Assembly: GCF_000719135.1 (NCBI RefSeq)
Contig: NZ_JOEK01000017.1
Span: 189,481-253,480 of the forward strand
Source of the DNA: Streptomyces avicenniae
Lineage (GTDB): Bacteria; Actinomycetota; Actinomycetes; Streptomycetales; Streptomycetaceae
DNA: 64,000 nt
Direction: 5' to 3'
The position numbers and the translations under genes are program-made. Under the pieces are notes generated by a model, which was not told the origin of the DNA, searched no databases, and saw nothing but the letters and a program-made list of their open reading frames with translations. This document shows positions 8,195 to 57,505 of this stretch, piece by piece (the first letter of the stretch is position 1; each line of letters begins with the position of its first letter).

Positions 8195-9169
8195 GTGAAC
8201 GACTCCCCCGCGCCCCTGCTCGACGTGCACGCGCACTTCCTCACCGACGCCTACGTCGCGGCGGCCAAGGCGGCGGGACATGTCCGGCCTGACGGCATGC
8301 CCGGCTGGCCGTCCTGGGACGCGCGCGACCACCTGCGGCAGATGGACGAGGCGGGCATCGCCACCGCGCTGCTCTCCGTCTCCTCCCCAGGCACCCACTT
8401 CGGCGACGACGCCGCCGCCCGCGCGCTCAGCCGCGCGGTGAACGACGCGGGCGCCGCCCTCAGACGCGACCACCCCGACCGCTACGGCCACCTCGCCTCC
8501 CTGCCCCTGCCCGACGTCGAGGGCGCGCTCGCGGAGGCCACCCGCGCGCTCGACGTGCTGGGCAGCGACGGCCTGACGGTCCTGTCCAACGCCGGGGGCG
8601 TCTACCTGGGCGACGAGCGGTTCGAGCCGCTGTGGACCGAGCTGGACCGGCGCCGGGCGGTCGTCCTCGTCCACCCCACGTCGCCGCCCTGCGCCGAGAC
8701 GCTCGCCCTGGGCCGTCCGCGCCCGATGGCCGAGTACCTCTTCGACGAGGCGCGGGCCGCGTCCGACCTGGTCCTCGGCGGTGTCCTGACCCGCCACCCG
8801 GGCATCCGCTGGATCGTCACGCACGGCGGCGGCGTCCTGCCGCTGCTCGCGGACCGGCTGGAACTCTTCCGGCCCCTCCTCGGCGGCGCGGCGTCCGGCG
8901 GCCCCGGCGTGCGGGAGCAGCTGTCCGGGCTCTGGTACGACACGGCGGGGACGCCGTTCCCCCGGCAGATCCCGGCCCTCGTCGGCGCGTTCGGGAGCGA
9001 CCGGGTGCTGTACGGCAGCGACTCGTGCTGGACACCGGCCGCGGGGGTGGCGGCGCAGGTGGCGTCGCTCGGCGGCGCCGAGCAGCCTCCCGGCACGACA
9101 TGGCGCGCCCTGACCACCCGCAACGCGGCCCGCCTCTTCCCCCACCTGCCCCCCACGGGCGGCGGGTGA
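8195..9169 (+). CDS. Amidohydrolase family 2 (ACMSD-like) metal-dependent hydrolase or decarboxylase
   Basis: A 324-residue TIM-barrel amidohydrolase. Metal-site blocks are in order: DVHAHF near the N-terminus, VHPTSPPC in the middle, WIVTHGGGVLPLLADRL, and LYGSDSCWTP near the C-terminus. This pattern fits the aminocarboxymuconate-semialdehyde decarboxylase-like branch, whose members decarboxylate or hydrolyse aromatic or muconate substrates. The GTG start has AGGAGG 5 nt upstream. It stands alone between the sigma operon and the XRE locus, so context gives no substrate. Confidence 0.85.
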   Translation: MNDSPAPLLDVHAHFLTDAYVAAAKAAGHVRPDGMPGWPSWDARDHLRQMDEAGIATALLSVSSPGTHFGDDAAARALSRAVNDAGAALRRDHPDRYGHLASLPLPDVEGALAEATRALDVLGSDGLTVLSNAGGVYLGDERFEPLWTELDRRRAVVLVHPTSPPCAETLALGRPRPMAEYLFDEARAASDLVLGGVLTRHPGIRWIVTHGGGVLPLLADRLELFRPLLGGAASGGPGVREQLSGLWYDTAGTPFPRQIPALVGAFGSDRVLYGSDSCWTPAAGVAAQVASLGGAEQPPGTTWRALTTRNAARLFPHLPPTGGG

Positions 9170-9194
9170 GGGAGGGCGGTGTGCCCCGGGGCCC

Positions 9195-9596
9195 TCAGCC
9201 CACCGCCGAGGCGGCGCAGGGGCACGGGGCCTGCGGATCGGCCCGGTTGGGACAGCTCACCAGCGCCAGGGACAGGTAGCGGACGCCGGGACCGTACAGG
9301 CCCCAGGCGATGTCACCGCCCCAGCCGAGCACGTCGAGCGCGTCCTGGCAGCGCCGGTCGAGCGGCGGCCAGACCGGCGTACCGGCCCCGGCCGCCTGCC
9401 CGGAGAGCCAGGAGACGGCGCTGGGCGGGTCGTCGAACGTGGCCTTGACGTACGCCACCGGTTTGCGCAGCCAGTCGGCCACGCGCATCGGCGGTGTCCC
9501 GACCGCCGTGAACGACGGGTGGTCCGCCCGCCGTTCACGCTCCCGGTCGAGGTCCGCACGCGGCCCGAGCCACGAGAACGCGTGGACGTGCGTCAC
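9195..9596 (-). CDS. Hypothetical protein coupled to the DUF397 gene
   Basis: A 133-residue protein with no family that I recognise. It has HAFSWLGPRADLDRERERRA near its N-terminus, a Trp-rich centre, and a Cys/Pro-rich tail (SCPNRADPQAPCPC). The GTG at 9594-9596 overlaps the stop of the DUF397 gene as GTGA, so translation is likely coupled. A longer reading to 9734 would run inside the DUF397 gene in another frame and is not supported. It is the last gene of the five-gene XRE locus. Confidence 0.6.
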   Translation of the reverse strand: MTHVHAFSWLGPRADLDRERERRADHPSFTAVGTPPMRVADWLRKPVAYVKATFDDPPSAVSWLSGQAAGAGTPVWPPLDRRCQDALDVLGWGGDIAWGLYGPGVRYLSLALVSCPNRADPQAPCPCAASAVG

Positions 9597-9823
9597 CGGC
9601 CGAAGTTCTCCAGGTCGATACCGGCCGCCGCCAGCTCCTCGACCGTGAACCGCAGCGGTGCCGCCTCCGGCCGCTTGCTGTCGCCCAACGCGTAGGCACC
9701 CTCGACGCCCGGAATGGGCGCCAGGGTGACGCATGTCTCCGGCCCGTCCGGCCCATTACCGCCGCACGCGGGTGCGAATTCGGCTCCGCCGAGATCGACG
9801 GCGTAGATGTCCTGTCCGGCCAT
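9593..9823 (-). CDS. DUF397-domain small protein
   Basis: A 76-residue protein with the DUF397 pattern: a Cys-containing GGNGPDGPETCVTLA block followed by GDSKRPEAAPLRFTVEELAA, corresponding to the usual VRDSK..L.F..W core. In Streptomyces such proteins are encoded beside XRE regulators with a DUF5753 domain (whiJ- and abaA-type clusters) and are thought to act as antagonists or partners of the regulator. The gene has its own 100-bp upstream region with a TAACGT -10-like hexamer and an operator-like motif at 9901-9920. Confidence 0.82.
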   Translation of the reverse strand: MAGQDIYAVDLGGAEFAPACGGNGPDGPETCVTLAPIPGVEGAYALGDSKRPEAAPLRFTVEELAAAGIDLENFGR

Positions 9824-51204: not shown

Positions 51205-51242
51205 TTGACAATGATTGTCATCTGACTTGAAAATGGCTGTCA
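51205..51242 (+). promoter_or_regulatory. znuA promoter with two Zur boxes
   Basis: TGACAATGATTGTCA (51206-51220) is a perfect 7-1-7 palindrome and TGAAAATGGCTGTCA (51228-51242) a second, imperfect one, with centres 22 bp apart; both follow the Streptomyces Zur-box pattern. The first overlaps a perfect -35 TTGACA (51205-51210), the second covers the -10-like GAAAAT (51229-51234) and touches the ATG at 51242. Zinc-bound Zur would block polymerase at both elements. Confidence 0.75.
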
Positions 51243-52285
51243 TGAGCATCCGTCGCGTTGGTACGCGTTCCCGTTCCCGATCCCGCTCCCGGATAGCCGG
51301 CTCCGCGCTCACCGCGGGCGCCACGGCCGTGGGGCTGCTGGCCCTGACGGCCTGCGGCTCCGACGACGGCGGGGGCGGAGGGGACGGCGCGGGCGGCGGG
51401 CGGCTGGACGTGGTGGCGTCGTTCTACCCGATGGAGTTCCTGGCCGAGCGCATCGGCGGCGACCACGTCGAGGTCTCGACGCTGACCGGGCCGGGCGTCG
51501 AGCCGCACGACCTGGAGCTGTCGCCGCGGCAGACGGCGCGGGTCACGGAGGCGGACCTGGTGGTCTACCTGGCCGGGCTCCAGCCGACCGTGGACGAGGC
51601 GGTGGAGACCTCGGGCGTCGCACACGTCGCGGAGGCCACGTCGTTCACGTCCCTGGAGGAGCACGGCGACGACGTGCACGGCGAGGAGGAGCACGCCGAC
51701 GAGCACGGGGACGAGCACGCCGAGGAGGGCCACGAGGGGCACGACCACGACCACGAGGGCGGCGACCCGCACATCTGGCTCGACCCGGCGAAGTACGCGG
51801 AGGTCGCCGAGGGCGTCGGCGACGCCCTGGCCGAGGCCGACCCGGACCACGCCGCGGACTACGCGCGGAACACGGACACGCTCGTCGAGGAACTGCACGC
51901 GCTGGACGGGGAGTTCACCGAGGGCCTGGCCGGGCGGCAGTCCGACACGTTCATCACGACGCACGCCGCCTTCGGCTACCTCGCGGAGGCGTACGGTCTG
52001 CACGAGGAGGCCATCGCCGGTCTCGACCCCGAGTCGGAGCCGAGCGCGGCCCGGATGCGGGATCTCCAGGACATCGCGGAGGCGGACGGCGTCTCCACCA
52101 TCTTCTTCGAGACACTGGTCAGCGACGACACCGCGCGGACGCTCGCGGACGACCTCGGGCTGACCACGGCCGTGCTCGACCCGGTCGAGGGCATCACGGA
52201 CGAGTCCGCGGGCTCCGACTACCTCGCCGTGATGCGGGCGAACCTGGCGGCGCTCCAGGCGGCCCTGGGCGTCCCCGCCTCCTGA
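51242..52285 (+). CDS. znuA: Zinc ABC transporter, substrate-binding lipoprotein
   Basis: A 347-residue cluster A-I binding protein. Signal and lipobox: AVGLLALTACGSDD. The metal site His residues lie in GPGVEPHDLELSPRQ, DPHIWLDPAKYAEV and TTHAAFGYLAEAYG; an acidic His-rich loop (HGDDVHGEEEHADEHGDEHA and more) of about 40 residues around 145-180 is typical of zinc-specific ZnuA. Start choice: ATG 51242 lies 7 nt after the GAAAAT -10 (leaderless); an in-frame ATG at 51233 is inside that element. First gene of znuACB. Confidence 0.93.
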   Translation: MSIRRVGTRSRSRSRSRIAGSALTAGATAVGLLALTACGSDDGGGGGDGAGGGRLDVVASFYPMEFLAERIGGDHVEVSTLTGPGVEPHDLELSPRQTARVTEADLVVYLAGLQPTVDEAVETSGVAHVAEATSFTSLEEHGDDVHGEEEHADEHGDEHAEEGHEGHDHDHEGGDPHIWLDPAKYAEVAEGVGDALAEADPDHAADYARNTDTLVEELHALDGEFTEGLAGRQSDTFITTHAAFGYLAEAYGLHEEAIAGLDPESEPSAARMRDLQDIAEADGVSTIFFETLVSDDTARTLADDLGLTTAVLDPVEGITDESAGSDYLAVMRANLAALQAALGVPAS

Positions 52286-52362
52286 CGGGGACGGGGCCGG
52301 GCGGAGCGGGACGGCGGCGGCGGCGGAGAAGCGGACGGCGGAGGACGGAAGGGGAGCGGACC

Positions 52363-53127
52363 ATGGAGCAGCCAGAGCCCGTCATAGCCCTGCGGGGCGT
52401 GAGCGCGGAGCTGGGCGGACGTCCGGTGCTGCGCGGCGTGGACCTGACGGTGCGGCGCGGCGAGGTGGTGGCCCTGCTCGGGGCGAACGGCTCGGGCAAG
52501 TCCACGGCCGTGCGCGCCGCCGTGGGGCAGGTGCCGGTGAGCGGCGGGGAGCTGGCGCTCTTCGGGACGCCGGTGCGGCGCTTCCGTGACTGGCGGCGGA
52601 TCGGGTACGTGCCGCAGCGTTCGACGGCGGCGGGCGGTGTGCCCGCGACCGTGCGCGAGGTGGTGATGTCGGGGCGGCTGGCGTTGCGGCGGCTGCGTCC
52701 GCTGGGGCGCGCCGACCGGGCGGCCGTGGACCGTGCGCTGGGCCTGGTGGGGCTGGCGGACCGTGCGGGCGATCCGGTGGGGTCGTTGTCGGGCGGGCAG
52801 CACCAGCGGGTGCTGATCGCGCGGGCCCTGGCGATCGGCCCTGAGCTGCTGCTGATGGACGAGCCGCTGGCGGGCGTCGATCTGGCGAGCCAGCGGGTGC
52901 TGTCGGGGACGCTCGCGGCGCTGACGGCCGAGGGTGTGTCGGTGCTGCTGGTGCTGCACGAGCTGGGGCCGCTCCAGCCGCTGATCGACCGGGCGGTGGT
53001 GCTGGCGCACGGCCGGGTCGAGCGGACCGTGGACCATCCGGCGCAGCTGCCGGAGTCGCATGCCTGCCATCCGGCGGACGAGCTGCCGCCGTCCGCCGCG
53101 CCGTCGCTCCAGACCGGGATCCTGTGA
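52363..53127 (+). CDS. znuC: Zinc ABC transporter, ATP-binding protein
   Basis: A 254-residue ATPase: Walker A GANGSGKST, signature LSGGQHQRVLIARAL, Walker B ELLLMDEPLAGVD and switch His in VLLVLHELGPL. It powers ZnuB. The ATG has GGGGAGCGG upstream. It lies 77 bp after znuA and 7 bp before znuB. Confidence 0.95.
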   Translation: MEQPEPVIALRGVSAELGGRPVLRGVDLTVRRGEVVALLGANGSGKSTAVRAAVGQVPVSGGELALFGTPVRRFRDWRRIGYVPQRSTAAGGVPATVREVVMSGRLALRRLRPLGRADRAAVDRALGLVGLADRAGDPVGSLSGGQHQRVLIARALAIGPELLLMDEPLAGVDLASQRVLSGTLAALTAEGVSVLLVLHELGPLQPLIDRAVVLAHGRVERTVDHPAQLPESHACHPADELPPSAAPSLQTGIL

Positions 53128-53134
53128 GGCCGTG

Positions 53135-54013
53135 ATGTTCGAGGTGTTGGACTACGCGTTCATGCAGCGGGCGTTGCTCGCCGCGCTGCTGATCGGTTTC
53201 GCCGCGCCCGCCGTCGGCATCTACCTGGTGCAGCGGCAGCAGGCGCTGATGGGGGACGGCATCGGGCATGTGGCGCTGACGGGGGTGGCGCTCGGTTTCC
53301 TGCTGAGCGCGAACCCGGTGTGGACGGCCGTGCTGGTCTCGACGGTCGGGGCGGTGGCGATGGAGCTGCTGCGCTCGTCGGGGCGGGCGCGGGGGGACGT
53401 GGCGCTGGCGATGCTGTTCTACGGCGGCATGGCGGGCGGTGTGATGCTCATCAATCTGGCGCCTGGTGGTTCGACGGCGAACCTGACGTCGTACCTGTGG
53501 GGGTCGGTCACGACGGTCTCGGAGGGGGACATCGCGGCGATCTGCTGGCTGTCCGTGTTCGTGCTGGTGGTGACGCTCGGCCTGCGGCGGCAGTTGTTCG
53601 CCGTCTGTCAGGACGAGGAGTTCGCGCGGGTGACGGGGCTGCCGGTGCGGACGCTGAACCTGCTGCTGGCCGTGACGGCCGCGGCGACGGTCACGGTCGC
53701 CATGCGGGTCGTGGGGCTGCTGCTGGTCAGCGCGCTGATGGTGATCCCGGTGGTGGCGGCGCAGCAGGCGACGCGTGGGTTCGTGATGACGCTGGCGCTC
53801 GCGATGGTCTTCGGGGTGCTGGTGTCCGTGTCGGGGACGGTGACGTCGTACTACGCGGACGTGCCGCCGGGGGCGACGATCGTGCTGATCGCGCTGGGGC
53901 TGTTCCTGGTGGTCTCGGTGCTGGCGCTGCCGCTGGCGAGGAGCCGGGCGCGCAGGCAGGCGGCGCGGGAGGCCGTGCCGGTGCCGGAGGCGGCGGGGGT
54001 GGCCGGGGCGTAG
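53135..54013 (+). CDS. znuB: Zinc ABC transporter, permease
   Basis: A 292-residue ABC-3 family permease with about eight membrane segments (LLAALLIGFAAPAVGIYLVQ; GHVALTGVALGFLLSANPVW; AMRVVGLLLVSALMVIPVVA; TIVLIALGLFLVVSVLALPL). The start is ATG 53135, with an adjacent in-frame GTG at 53132 possible. It forms the membrane channel for Zn2+ with ZnuA and ZnuC. Confidence 0.95.
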   Translation: MFEVLDYAFMQRALLAALLIGFAAPAVGIYLVQRQQALMGDGIGHVALTGVALGFLLSANPVWTAVLVSTVGAVAMELLRSSGRARGDVALAMLFYGGMAGGVMLINLAPGGSTANLTSYLWGSVTTVSEGDIAAICWLSVFVLVVTLGLRRQLFAVCQDEEFARVTGLPVRTLNLLLAVTAAATVTVAMRVVGLLLVSALMVIPVVAAQQATRGFVMTLALAMVFGVLVSVSGTVTSYYADVPPGATIVLIALGLFLVVSVLALPLARSRARRQAAREAVPVPEAAGVAGA

Positions 54014-54096
54014 CGGCGGGCCTGTGCCCGGAGCAACCGAAAACAGCTACCCTGACGACGCGGGGTCAGGTCCGATTCTGCGGCGAGGAGGCAGAC

Positions 54097-54513
54097 GTGG
54101 AGACGCTGGGACCACCGGTACGCGGCCGTTCGACGCGCCAGCGCGCGGCCGTCGCGGCGGCGCTCGCGGAGGTCGATGAGTTCCGGAGCGCGCAGGAACT
54201 GCACGACATGCTGAAGCACAAGGGCGACTCGGTGGGCCTGACGACCGTCTACCGCACGCTCCAGTCCCTCGCCGACGCGGGCGAGGTCGATGTGCTGCGG
54301 ACCGTCGAGGGCGAGGCCGTCTACCGGCGCTGCGCCAGTGACGACCACCATCACCATCTGGTGTGCCGGGCGTGCGGCAAGGCGGTGGAGGTCGAGGGGC
54401 CCGCGGTGGAGAAGTGGGCGGACGCGACGGCGCGGGAGCACGGGTTCGTGGACGTGCGGCACACCGTGGAGATCTTCGGTACCTGCGGGGACTGCGCGGG
54501 CGCCTGCTCCTGA
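54097..54513 (+). CDS. zur: Zinc uptake regulator, Fur family
   Basis: A 138-residue Fur-family repressor. DNA-binding helix: GLTTVYRTLQSLADAGEVDV. Metal residues: DDHHHHLVCRACG and GTCGDCAGAC provide the His cluster and the two CxxC pairs of the structural zinc. The GTG at 54097 has GAGGAGG 5-6 nt upstream. It follows znuB by 83 bp; a TACCCT hexamer at 54048-54053 may give it its own promoter. It should repress znuACB through the boxes at 51206-51242. Confidence 0.94.
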   Translation: METLGPPVRGRSTRQRAAVAAALAEVDEFRSAQELHDMLKHKGDSVGLTTVYRTLQSLADAGEVDVLRTVEGEAVYRRCASDDHHHHLVCRACGKAVEVEGPAVEKWADATAREHGFVDVRHTVEIFGTCGDCAGACS

Positions 54514-55468: not shown

Positions 55469-56701
55469 TCAGGCGAGGAGGAGGGCCATGTCCCAGCCTC
55501 GTACGGCGGGGCCGCCGCCGCCCGCGTAGGTGTCGAGTGCCAGGGCCACGCCCGCGGCGCCGTCGAGGAAGCCCGGGGAGGCGGCGGGGCGTCCGTCGGG
55601 TGCGGTGAAGCGGTAGCAGAAGCGGGATCGCGGGTCGTGGTGGGCGAGGAGGATGGACGCGATCTCGTCGTGGAGGAGCCGGAGCCGTCCGTCGTCGAGG
55701 TGGGCGGCGAGGAGGCCGGTGAGGTGGAGGACGCCGCTCCAGCCGTGGCGGATGCCGGGGCTGTCGAGGCCCCATTTCTCGGGGTCCTGGGTGATCAGGG
55801 GCAGCAGGGCGCGGTGGGCGAGGGTGTGCCAGTCGTGGCGGCCGAGGGCGAGGGCCGCGAGCTGGACGGCGCGGGCCGTGCCGGGGGCGCCGTCGGACCA
55901 GGTGGGGCGGCTGGGGGCGGGTGACCAGTGGCGTGGTCCCGCGGCCCACTCGTCGGGGGTGAGGTGGGCGGGCCACAGGATGCCGTCGCCCTGCCGTACG
56001 GCCCAGTCGGTGAGGAGGCCGACGAGGCGCTCGATGGCGTCGCGCTGGCCGTCGAGGACGACGCCGGCGCGGTGGGCGAGGGAGAGCAGGGCGAGGGGGC
56101 CCGCGATGCCGTGGGCGAGGCCGAGGTGGAGCCGGTCGTCGTGGGCGGACCACCAGGCGGGGACGGTGCGGCCGTGGCGCGGGACGGTGCGGCGGCTGAG
56201 GGTGATGAGGTGGGCCAGGACGGCGCGGAGTCCGGGGGTGGCCGTGCCGTCGCGGGCGAGGAGGTGGCGGCCGATGCCGGTGAGGCCGTCGGCGCCGATG
56301 CCGAGGCCGGGGGTGGTGGCGGCGTGGAGGGGGCGGGGCCATCGGGTGGCGAGGCGGTCGAGGGCGTCGAGGTGGTCGCCGGTGGCGCGGTGGGCGACGA
56401 GCAGGGCGAACGCGAGGGCGCCGGTGCCGTCGTGGATGCCGGTCGCGCCTGGCGGGGCGTGGGCTGCCGCCGTGGTGGCGCGGTCGAGGCAGGCGGCGGC
56501 GAGGCGTGCGTGGTCGGCGCCGCCGAGGGGGCTGCCGCTGAAGGCGAGGGAGACGCCGGGGTAGCCGTTCGCGAGGGAGAGGTCTCCCCAGGGGGACGCG
56601 GGCCCGGTGTCGGCGGCGGCGGCGCCGGGGTCGGCGAGCGCGCCGCGGATGCGGGCGGCGACGGTGCGGGCCTGGTCGCGGTGGCGTGGCGCGGGGTGCA
56701 C
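55469..56701 (-). CDS. LanC-like cyclase-fold protein lacking zinc-ligand cysteines
   Basis: A 410-residue LanC-family (alpha/alpha)-barrel protein. Family blocks are SLANGYPGVSLAFSGSPLGG, GLGIGADGLTGIGRHLL, LGLAHGIAGPLALLSLAH (residues 193-210) and PGFLDGAAGVALALDTYA near the end. The zinc motifs are altered: WCxG is W268-S-D-G and CHG is R318-H-G, so both Cys ligands of a lanthionine cyclase are gone while His319 remains. Class III cyclase domains also lack these ligands. The GTG at 56699-56701 has AGGAGG about 10 nt upstream. It follows a 19-residue peptide gene and a hairpin on the same strand. Thioether cyclisation by the usual zinc mechanism is unlikely. Confidence 0.85.
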   Translation of the reverse strand: MHPAPRHRDQARTVAARIRGALADPGAAAADTGPASPWGDLSLANGYPGVSLAFSGSPLGGADHARLAAACLDRATTAAAHAPPGATGIHDGTGALAFALLVAHRATGDHLDALDRLATRWPRPLHAATTPGLGIGADGLTGIGRHLLARDGTATPGLRAVLAHLITLSRRTVPRHGRTVPAWWSAHDDRLHLGLAHGIAGPLALLSLAHRAGVVLDGQRDAIERLVGLLTDWAVRQGDGILWPAHLTPDEWAAGPRHWSPAPSRPTWSDGAPGTARAVQLAALALGRHDWHTLAHRALLPLITQDPEKWGLDSPGIRHGWSGVLHLTGLLAAHLDDGRLRLLHDEIASILLAHHDPRSRFCYRFTAPDGRPAASPGFLDGAAGVALALDTYAGGGGPAVRGWDMALLLA

Positions 56702-56752
56702 GGTGCAGGACCCTCCTCTCCCCCGGGGTCCCGGGGCCGTACCCGGACATGA

Positions 56753-56790
56753 CGAAGGGCGGCAGGCGGTTCTCCGCCCGCCACCCTTCG
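56753..56790 (-). terminator. Strand-specific hairpin between peptide gene and LanC-like gene (attenuator)
   Basis: Arms 56753-56769 and 56774-56790 (17 bp) around a 4-nt loop. In minus-strand RNA every position pairs, two as G-U; the plus strand would have two A-C mismatches. It lies 17 bp after the peptide stop and about 50 bp before the cyclase start, the place where RiPP operons often have a leaky terminator that gives excess precursor. Confidence 0.65.
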
Positions 56791-56807
56791 GTGACAAGTG
56801 ATCAGCT

Positions 56808-56867
56808 TCAGCCAATGATGCCGATGATGCCGATGATGCCGATGATCGAGTCGCGGGAGGAAGTCAT
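56808..56867 (-). CDS. 19-residue peptide with four IIG repeats, candidate RiPP-like precursor
   Basis: The frame ATG 56867-56865 to TGA 56810-56808 encodes MTSSRDSIIGIIGIIGIIG. AGGAG stands 8 nt before the ATG, an ideal ribosome binding site. The second half is four perfect Ile-Ile-Gly repeats; the first seven residues carry one Thr, three Ser, Arg and Asp, and no Cys is present. It is on the same strand as, and 107 bp before, the LanC-like gene, with a hairpin between them. A modified hydrophobic peptide, a membrane-active peptide or a leader peptide controlling the cyclase are all possible. It is too short for automatic gene callers. Confidence 0.7.
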   Translation of the reverse strand: MTSSRDSIIGIIGIIGIIG

Positions 56868-57274
56868 AGTCAACACTCCTAATGTGATTGGGATTTGCAA
56901 GAGCTGTGCTGCACGCGTAACCGTAGTTGGTGGAGTGACGCCTGCGCTAGATCGACCTGGACTGGATTTGAGTCACGTTCGTCACGTCCCTGGACCGCGC
57001 TCCGGACGGTGCGGTAGGGCGGCGGCGCCCGGGGGGCGGTGCGGCGGCAATGCCCTTTGGGCGACTGTGTGTTACCTCCCCGAGATCAGGGGCATGATTC
57101 CCGACGGCGCCCGGCGTGGGGCCCGGGTTACCCACCGTGCAAACTTGTTGAAGCCATGCCAGATCGAGGACGACTTGATTCCTGTGTTTCCTCTTCCGAT
57201 CAACACTGGTAATTAACGCGTTGGTTACGAAGAGGGCCGACTTCCGACCGGAGTGGGTGTGCGGGAGCGTCCGT
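56868..57274. other. Upstream control region of the peptide gene
   Basis: About 400 bp, more AT-rich than its surroundings. ACGTGAC occurs twice at 9-bp period on the minus strand (56987-56981 and 56978-56972), about 105 bp before the peptide ATG, and may be a regulator site. TACGGT (56925-56920, minus strand) is a possible -10 hexamer. A 62-codon leftward frame (56947-57135) has no start signal and is not accepted as a gene. Confidence 0.4.
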
Positions 57275-57505
57275 TCAGGGGGTGGGGCGCCTGTCGGGGT
57301 CGGGCTCGGGCGGCGGGTCGTCGCCGGGTGGTGGTCCGTCGGGCGCGCGGCGGGTGTCGGCCGTGGCGCCGCCGGTGGCCGCGCGGCCCTCCCAGCCGGG
57401 GAGCACCCGGCCGCACACGGCGTGGGTCCACAACTCGGTGTCCGTCACGGTCCACGCGCGCAGCGGCGCGCGCCCGAGTCGGCCGACCGGCTTCCGCCAT
57501 ACCAC
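57275..57505 (-). CDS. Small hypothetical protein
   Basis: A 76-residue protein from GTG 57503-57505 with AGGAG 7 nt upstream. The N-terminal half (VVWRKPVGRLGRAPLRAWTV; ELWTHAVCGRVLPGWEGR) looks folded, the C-terminal half is Pro/Asp-rich and disordered. No family is recognised. It is in the same direction as the peptide gene but 400 bp upstream, so a joint transcript is uncertain. Confidence 0.6.
   Translation of the reverse strand: MVWRKPVGRLGRAPLRAWTVTDTELWTHAVCGRVLPGWEGRAATGGATADTRRAPDGPPPGDDPPPEPDPDRRPTP

Follow-up and report, generated by a model that had tools for sequence, protein, structure and literature searches.

A LanC-like protein without zinc cysteines downstream of a short (IIG)4 open reading frame in Streptomyces avicenniae: a probable remnant of a class I lanthipeptide operon

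The window analysed here, a stretch of 64,000 nucleotides (64 kb) from Streptomyces avicenniae, encodes on its minus strand a stand-alone LanC-like protein that has lost both zinc cysteines, and a 19-codon open reading frame (ORF) with four IIG repeats lies directly before the gene. With a probability of about one half, the protein is a selected, non-cyclising binding protein of the LanC fold that remains from a class I lanthipeptide operon, with its translation gated by the short ORF. The features of the locus are collected in Table 1.

Table 1. Features of the lanC-like locus, in window coordinates
Feature	Position	Strand	Remarks
lanC-like gene	55469..56701	-	GTG start, 410 aa, stop included; S269 and R318 replace the zinc cysteines; H319 and H197 kept
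Shine-Dalgarno of lanC-like gene, GAGGAGGG	56711..56718	-	
Hairpin between short ORF and lanC-like gene	56753..56790	-	17 bp, G-U pairs included; 4-nt loop; no T tract
Short ORF, MTSSRDS(IIG)4	56808..56867	-	19 codons, stop included; repeat array 56811-56846
Predicted anti-Shine-Dalgarno, CTTCCTC	56857..56863	-	codons 2-4 of short ORF; pairs with GAGGAGG of the lanC-like ribosome site
Shine-Dalgarno of short ORF, AGGAG	56876..56880	-	8 nt before ATG
Palindrome, GTAATTAACGCGTTGGTTAC	57209..57228		about 340 bp upstream of short ORF, in an AT-richer stretch; candidate operator

The lanC-like ORF begins with GTG at 56701 and contains 410 codons with a GC3 of 0.95. Its product matched the Pfam family LANC_like (PF05147, E = 4.2e-27) over residues 38–395 of 410 as a single domain, and a sequence search of the PDB gave two matches, 8byk (a LanC-like protein) and NisC. 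The NisC alignment was read using the zinc-ligand residue numbers given in the available part of PMC10604976. Cys284 and Cys330 of NisC are replaced by S269 and R318, while the third ligand, His331, is retained as H319, and the zinc-site motifs read WSDG and RHG. The first-pass annotation had stated that both zinc cysteines are lost, and the alignment confirmed this with the addition that the ligand histidine remains. H197, whose counterpart in the alignment is His212, the conserved acid of NisC, is present in both zinc-free members, the window protein and an ortholog (P0002) described below; the role of His212 is treated in the accessible text of PMC9934072. The protein has the fold of a LanC but S269, R318 and H319 in place of the Cys-Cys-His zinc triad of class I LanC, and its single LANC_like domain separates it from the class III LanKC enzymes, in which lyase and kinase domains are fused to the cyclase.

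The loss of zinc ligands alone would not rule out catalysis, because the class III LanKC cyclases act without them, as the available sections of PMC10604976 state. From the same partial source, the class III enzyme ThurKC is metal-independent, with Ser, Phe and Asp at the ligand positions; it resembles the window protein in having a zinc-ligand-free LanC fold with Ser at the first position, but has other residues at the remaining two positions, and the window protein has a single LanC domain. The window protein could by analogy catalyse cyclisation without zinc, working in trans on a substrate whose dehydration takes place elsewhere, and the H197 kept in both members is consistent with such a role. 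However, a position that is mostly Tyr in bacterial LanC proteins, and that may stabilise the enolate according to the portion of PMC9934072 available, is Asp in the window protein, and when the genomic context given below is also considered a cyclase acting in trans appears very improbable.

Both cysteines were present by motif in 118 of 120 homologous proteins listed, the exceptions being the window protein and P0002; in P0059 the motif reads WCYD, with the Cys retained. The first homolog listing comprised the best 120 of 202 proteins and the second 120 of 366. Across the 225 proteins of both listings the first-Cys motif test lacked stringency, with matches at other sites in P0121 and P0122, so the count rests on the CHG motif, which was present in 221 of the 225; the four proteins without it fall in two lineages, and a LanC without a zinc site is rare in this neighbourhood. 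Genome searches gave 66 loci, some of which hold one gene twice, and the only loci lacking both cysteines were those of the window gene (L003, L074) and L005, which holds the same gene as the orphan of locus L089 discussed below. One further locus, L011, was missed by the CHG motif test and found to be intact on closer inspection. When P0002 was searched against overlapping draws of genus, family and order genomes (366, 394 and 187), nothing was found beyond the window gene itself and homologs that did not exceed 55% identity, and these homologs retain both cysteines by motif; plasmids gave 11 matches, every one below 60% identity. Genome scans with the window protein and with the alignment of the zinc-free pair confirmed no further ortholog, a negative of little weight because each scan had M in place of the GTG start in one of its patterns (6 and 2 patterns, respectively).

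The ortholog P0002, from Streptomyces sp. NPDC049881, is full-length and shares 72% BLASTP identity with the window protein, and all three of its ligand positions are replaced (A, R and Y). Both proteins carry the substitutions Y270D and C318R, indicating that the zinc site was lost before the two diverged. On the tree they formed a clade with support of 100/100, and its sister was the intact protein P0003 from S. mayteni (87/94, or 81/77 in a smaller tree); P0031, P0033 and P0050 were left out of the first tree as short. Constraint was measured by comparing the window protein with P0002, proteins from two species only, over columns scored on 44 intact proteins of P0003–P0048, from which P0031 and P0033 were dropped as short. 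The pair differed at 11 of the 139 conserved columns (at least 85%), and among the 249 columns below that level it differed at 86 (Fisher p = 1e-9). Neutral decay would not have spared the conserved columns after the split, which argues for a LanC-like protein retained under constraint and not a decaying relic.

A gene that is decaying after the loss of lanA and lanB, with its stop codon yet to come, would be an orphan with lost ligands, as this one is, and would be expected to carry changes at otherwise invariant positions. The zinc-free pair differs at 8 of 84 near-invariant columns compared to 1–5 of about 90 in 12 intact pairs (those printed, of 39 with 70–80% identity), suggesting that some positions, the ligands included, are relaxed. 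This relic is nevertheless quite unlikely, as family-conserved columns were avoided after the loss (at the p = 1e-9 above), the frames are full-length in two species at 72% identity, and the gene keeps its GC3 of 0.95 and a strong ribosome site.

Changes shared by the two proteins give some indication of what became of the pocket. In columns conserved to at least 85%, 17 family-rare changes are common to both members, and eight of them introduce His, Asp or Arg (at 109, 110, 138, 190, 192, 210, 270 and 318). By alignment both proteins have lost two Cys and one Tyr and gained several His/Asp. Enrichment of His/Asp in shared changes (11/46) over single-lineage changes (10/92) was not significant (p = 0.076). 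G-x-x-G motifs line the cavity in LanC folds; several of the shared His/Asp/Arg changes adjoin such motifs and so, judged by motif position, probably face the cavity. A rather improbable conjecture that would use these residues is a thioether-free system in which a Cys-free (IIG)n peptide is combined with the LanC toroid, the pocket being rebuilt with a shared His/Asp set (H90, D109, H110, D138, H192, H210 and D270) as a metal or catalytic site or as a chaperone, and synthesis of the two being coupled on the mRNA.

A second zinc-free orphan was found in locus L089, where the LanC gene at 8533-9774 is a 99% match to protein P0121 of Carbonactinospora thermoautotrophica. This protein has WEFG for WCYG and RSG for CHG, and Tyr replaces the conserved His of GLxHG. 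The genes called over 18 kb included no LanB, no IIG peptide was found at the locus, and a frame for an EamA-type transporter (Pfam) ends 17 nt before the LanC gene. The three zinc-free proteins grouped together in none of 200 bootstrap trees. Since the L089 protein is separate on the tree and has no peptide, zinc-free orphan LanC proteins have arisen at least twice and an IIG peptide is dispensable for them. The Carbonactinospora orphan is thus like the window protein in lacking a nearby LanB and in the Cys to Arg change of CHG, but differs in its separate loss, in the Tyr of GLxHG and in having no IIG peptide. Since the two are not orthologs, this case does not disprove a pairing of the IIG peptide with the LanC-like protein at the window locus.

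The genes that normally accompany a class I LanC were sought around the window gene. The tblastn search of the window with five LanB and three LanA queries gave no LanA or LanB homology (best E 0.27), and no further LanC-domain gene was found on the contig, which also speaks against a LanM; the statement that no LanB or LanM gene is adjacent was borne out to this extent. The closest LanC relatives by protein search, among the matches listed, were actinobacterial LanC proteins. In 16 larger stretches, chosen from the homolog loci found in genome searches, LanB adjoins LanC in 15, the exception being the zinc-free orphan of L089. For three of the LanB genes the upstream LanA candidates were scanned, and all matched TIGR04451 (the SCO0268 family), one above the curated cut-off and two below. 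Because the intact relatives are lanB-lanC operons and the window has no trace of LanA or LanB, the most plausible view is that the lanC-like gene is all that survives of a class I lanthipeptide operon; the precursors of that operon would have been SCO0268-family-like, and lanA and lanB would since have been lost. Locus L087 carries two LanB genes, a paired lanthipeptide locus, with frames resembling an oligopeptide transporter and a cytochrome P450 nearby (identified by eye).

It had also been proposed that lanthionine chemistry is not needed at this locus. The ligand loss is both real and old, the protein is constrained and the window is without dehydratase homology, and taken together these observations make ordinary lanthionine chemistry there very unlikely. 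Against a cyclase acting in trans, the window lacks LanA homology and the one LanB of this genome to pass the Pfam cut-off lies on another contig, in a YcaO/nitroreductase cluster of thiopeptide-like appearance. This LanB was considered as a partner and rejected, since it belongs to the YcaO cluster and is not a natural partner.

Three loci elsewhere in the genome carry related domains. The YcaO cluster just mentioned, at L072 (G000:C9:42000-60000), contains a BTAD regulator, two YcaO proteins and a nitroreductase-domain protein together with a split lantibiotic dehydratase, and has the appearance of a gene cluster for a thiopeptide or a related RiPP. At G000:C4:231884-232309 (L059), within a 274-aa frame, there is a weak match to the lantibiotic dehydratase N-terminal family (E 8.1e-4, below cut-off). 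The second LanC domain of the genome, at G000:C12:236945-240229 (L002), is in a 900-aa open frame that is perhaps a class III or IV synthetase.

The short ORF has its ATG at 56867 and its stop codon at 56808-56810, giving the product MTSSRDSIIGIIGIIGIIG, a Cys-free peptide with a Ser/Thr-bearing head of seven residues followed by (IIG)4. The 19-residue (IIG)4 peptide noted previously, with its AGGAG site 8 nt before the ATG on the minus strand, was found as described. The window contains 11 ATG ORFs of 12–50 codons with one of five strong Shine-Dalgarno types, this one included. In six frames of the 64 kb, (IIG)4 was the sole mixed three-residue unit detected in at least four repeats, its rarity being a post hoc observation with no formal test. 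At the DNA level the array is a 9-nt repeat of four copies with 96% matches. One base change was seen among the units and is synonymous, although one change alone demonstrates nothing.

Conservation of the short ORF was searched for in several ways. A degenerate IIG codon pattern run against 392 genus genomes matched (IIG)3 in the S. avicenniae genome alone and in none of the other 391. Using the intergenic DNA as query, 41 of 199 genomes, S. avicenniae included, gave matches at E ≤ 1e-3, and all except its own were short. Six of these loci were opened, and the match corresponded to the repeat in L091, L094, L095 and L098 and to sequence elsewhere in L093 and L096, each inside a long open frame; the matches were dropped as evidence of homology because they are short and the opened ones lie inside long open frames. 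The string IIGIIGIIG was not found by text search of the open-access literature, and no description of such a system was seen among the listed open-access matches (titles and starts of abstracts) for zinc-less, orphan or pseudoenzyme LanC.

The ORF may be untranslated, an AGGAG and ATG that happen to precede a 9-nt repeat in the 5' leader of an independent LanC-like gene. The searches for the IIG pattern and the intergenic DNA gave no evidence of conservation, and the window is rich in short tandem arrays (63 rows), both of which agree with a chance ORF. Against it, no other of the 11 comparable ORFs in 64 kb has such a repeat, and it is the only minus-strand ORF of at least 10 codons with a ribosome site among starts at 56702–57500; an untranslated ORF is therefore possible but somewhat unlikely.

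The short ORF and the lanC-like gene are 106 nt apart, and the gap including the stop codon (109 nt) folds with a z of -3.98. Perfect stems of at least 11 bp occur in 4 of 7 lanA-lanB gaps of relatives compared to 2 of 22 other same-strand control gaps, a comparison that left out L064 (folded), L061, L065, L067, L070, L071, L073, L088 and the second LanB gap of L087. As the lanA-lanB gaps of intact relatives also hold hairpins, the short ORF appears to occupy a lanA-like slot.

This position bears on the functional pairing put forward in the first-pass annotation, in which the (IIG)4 peptide, now in the lanA slot, would be a ligand or substrate of the zinc-free LanC for folding, protection, export or a non-lanthionine modification. 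The order of short ORF, hairpin (a 17-bp stem here) and processing gene is that of a lanA-like slot, Cys is absent from the peptide just as the zinc cysteines are from the protein, and the sole four-fold three-residue repeat of the window sits in one of the 11 ORFs with a good ribosome site. However, (IIG)3 is absent from the other 391 genus genomes, a leader/core layout is not evident, no protease gene was recognised by eye among the listed neighbours, and the independent orphan of L089 does without the peptide. The pairing was not upheld, since the IIG pattern occurs in this one genome of 392, the repeat matches that were opened lie in long frames and the L089 non-ortholog is free of the peptide. 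Such a pair is unlikely, and both translation of the IIG peptide and its partnership with the LanC-like protein are unproven.

A different role for the short ORF is suggested by the predicted fold of the mRNA. When the 221-nt leader was folded, pairing of CTTCCTC in the short ORF with GAGGAGG of the lanC-like ribosome site had a probability of 0.86–0.99, and the GGAGG was paired with bases more than 100 nt upstream at a predicted mean of 0.90, giving the sequestered downstream ribosome site that is expected for control by a leader ORF. A mean pairing of at least 0.8 was reached by 9 of 106 control genes; 200 shuffles gave it in 7% of cases, and when the short ORF was recoded synonymously 200 times the rate was 2%. 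The predicted sequestration signal is suggestive, not strong, and the gate may be a product of chance given that 9 of 106 other genes reach equal strength. Searches of Rfam and for sigma-70 and terminator consensus sequences gave no match, the latter on the relevant strand.

In the favoured explanation the short ORF is most likely a translated leader ORF, in which codons 2–4, including the Ser codons TCC TCC, would pair with the lanC-like Shine-Dalgarno, and initiation on the short ORF would free this site, allowing the LanC-like protein to be translated. The gating, if real, explains why the short ORF is kept whatever its product does, and a leader-ORF role explains the codon choice of the short ORF at least as well as functional pairing. 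In erm-type attenuators such as ermC, a short leader ORF likewise precedes a gene with a sequestered ribosome site; the window locus differs in that the pairing uses the first codons of the leader, and there is no known drug or stall signal.

A zinc-uptake operon lies one gene from the zinc-free LanC, at 51206-54513 of the window, with ZnuA, an ABC ATPase, an ABC-3 permease and a Fur-family regulator assigned by Pfam. A palindromic Zur-box-like site, TGACAATGATTGTCA, is present before znuA at 51206-51242, identified with up to three mismatches to the Zur-box consensus. Control of the LanC-like gene by Zur, as a zinc-free paralog, was considered and rejected, as a Zur-box-like site was present only before znuA and none before the LanC-like gene.

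The nearest characterised proteins to the window protein are probably the SCO0268/Coi-type and embleporicin-type class I LanC proteins CoiC and EmpC, described in the available parts of PMC9486935 and PMC11672506 and set beside it here by description only. The relatives fetched in this work share with that group a LanC adjoining LanB and LanA candidates that match TIGR04451. EmpC, as the accessible text of PMC11672506 has it, keeps the zinc triad, whereas the window protein is without triad, lanA and lanB. A related case is CA_C0082 of Clostridium acetobutylicum, which the available sections of PMC10301443 describe as a zinc-less LanM-like protein in a genome without other lanthipeptide genes. 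It is encoded beside a peptide-signalling locus, and granulose synthesis requires it, although the signal peptide can be made in its absence (same partial source). Both proteins are zinc-ligand-free descendants of lanthipeptide synthetases, but CA_C0082 is derived from LanM, has two domains and is encoded at an agr locus, while the window protein is a stand-alone LanC. A non-cyclising binding role, for which CA_C0082 is a precedent, is likely for the LanC-like protein. The LanC descendant would have been kept, without its zinc site, as a protein that most likely binds a peptide or protein in its toroid.

A selected, stand-alone, zinc-free LanC apart from any dehydratase would allow the question to be asked of what the LanC fold does without thioether chemistry, a question that CA_C0082 poses likewise. 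If it were true that the short peptide is the ligand of the LanC-like protein, the locus would show how a biosynthetic operon can give rise to a new peptide system.
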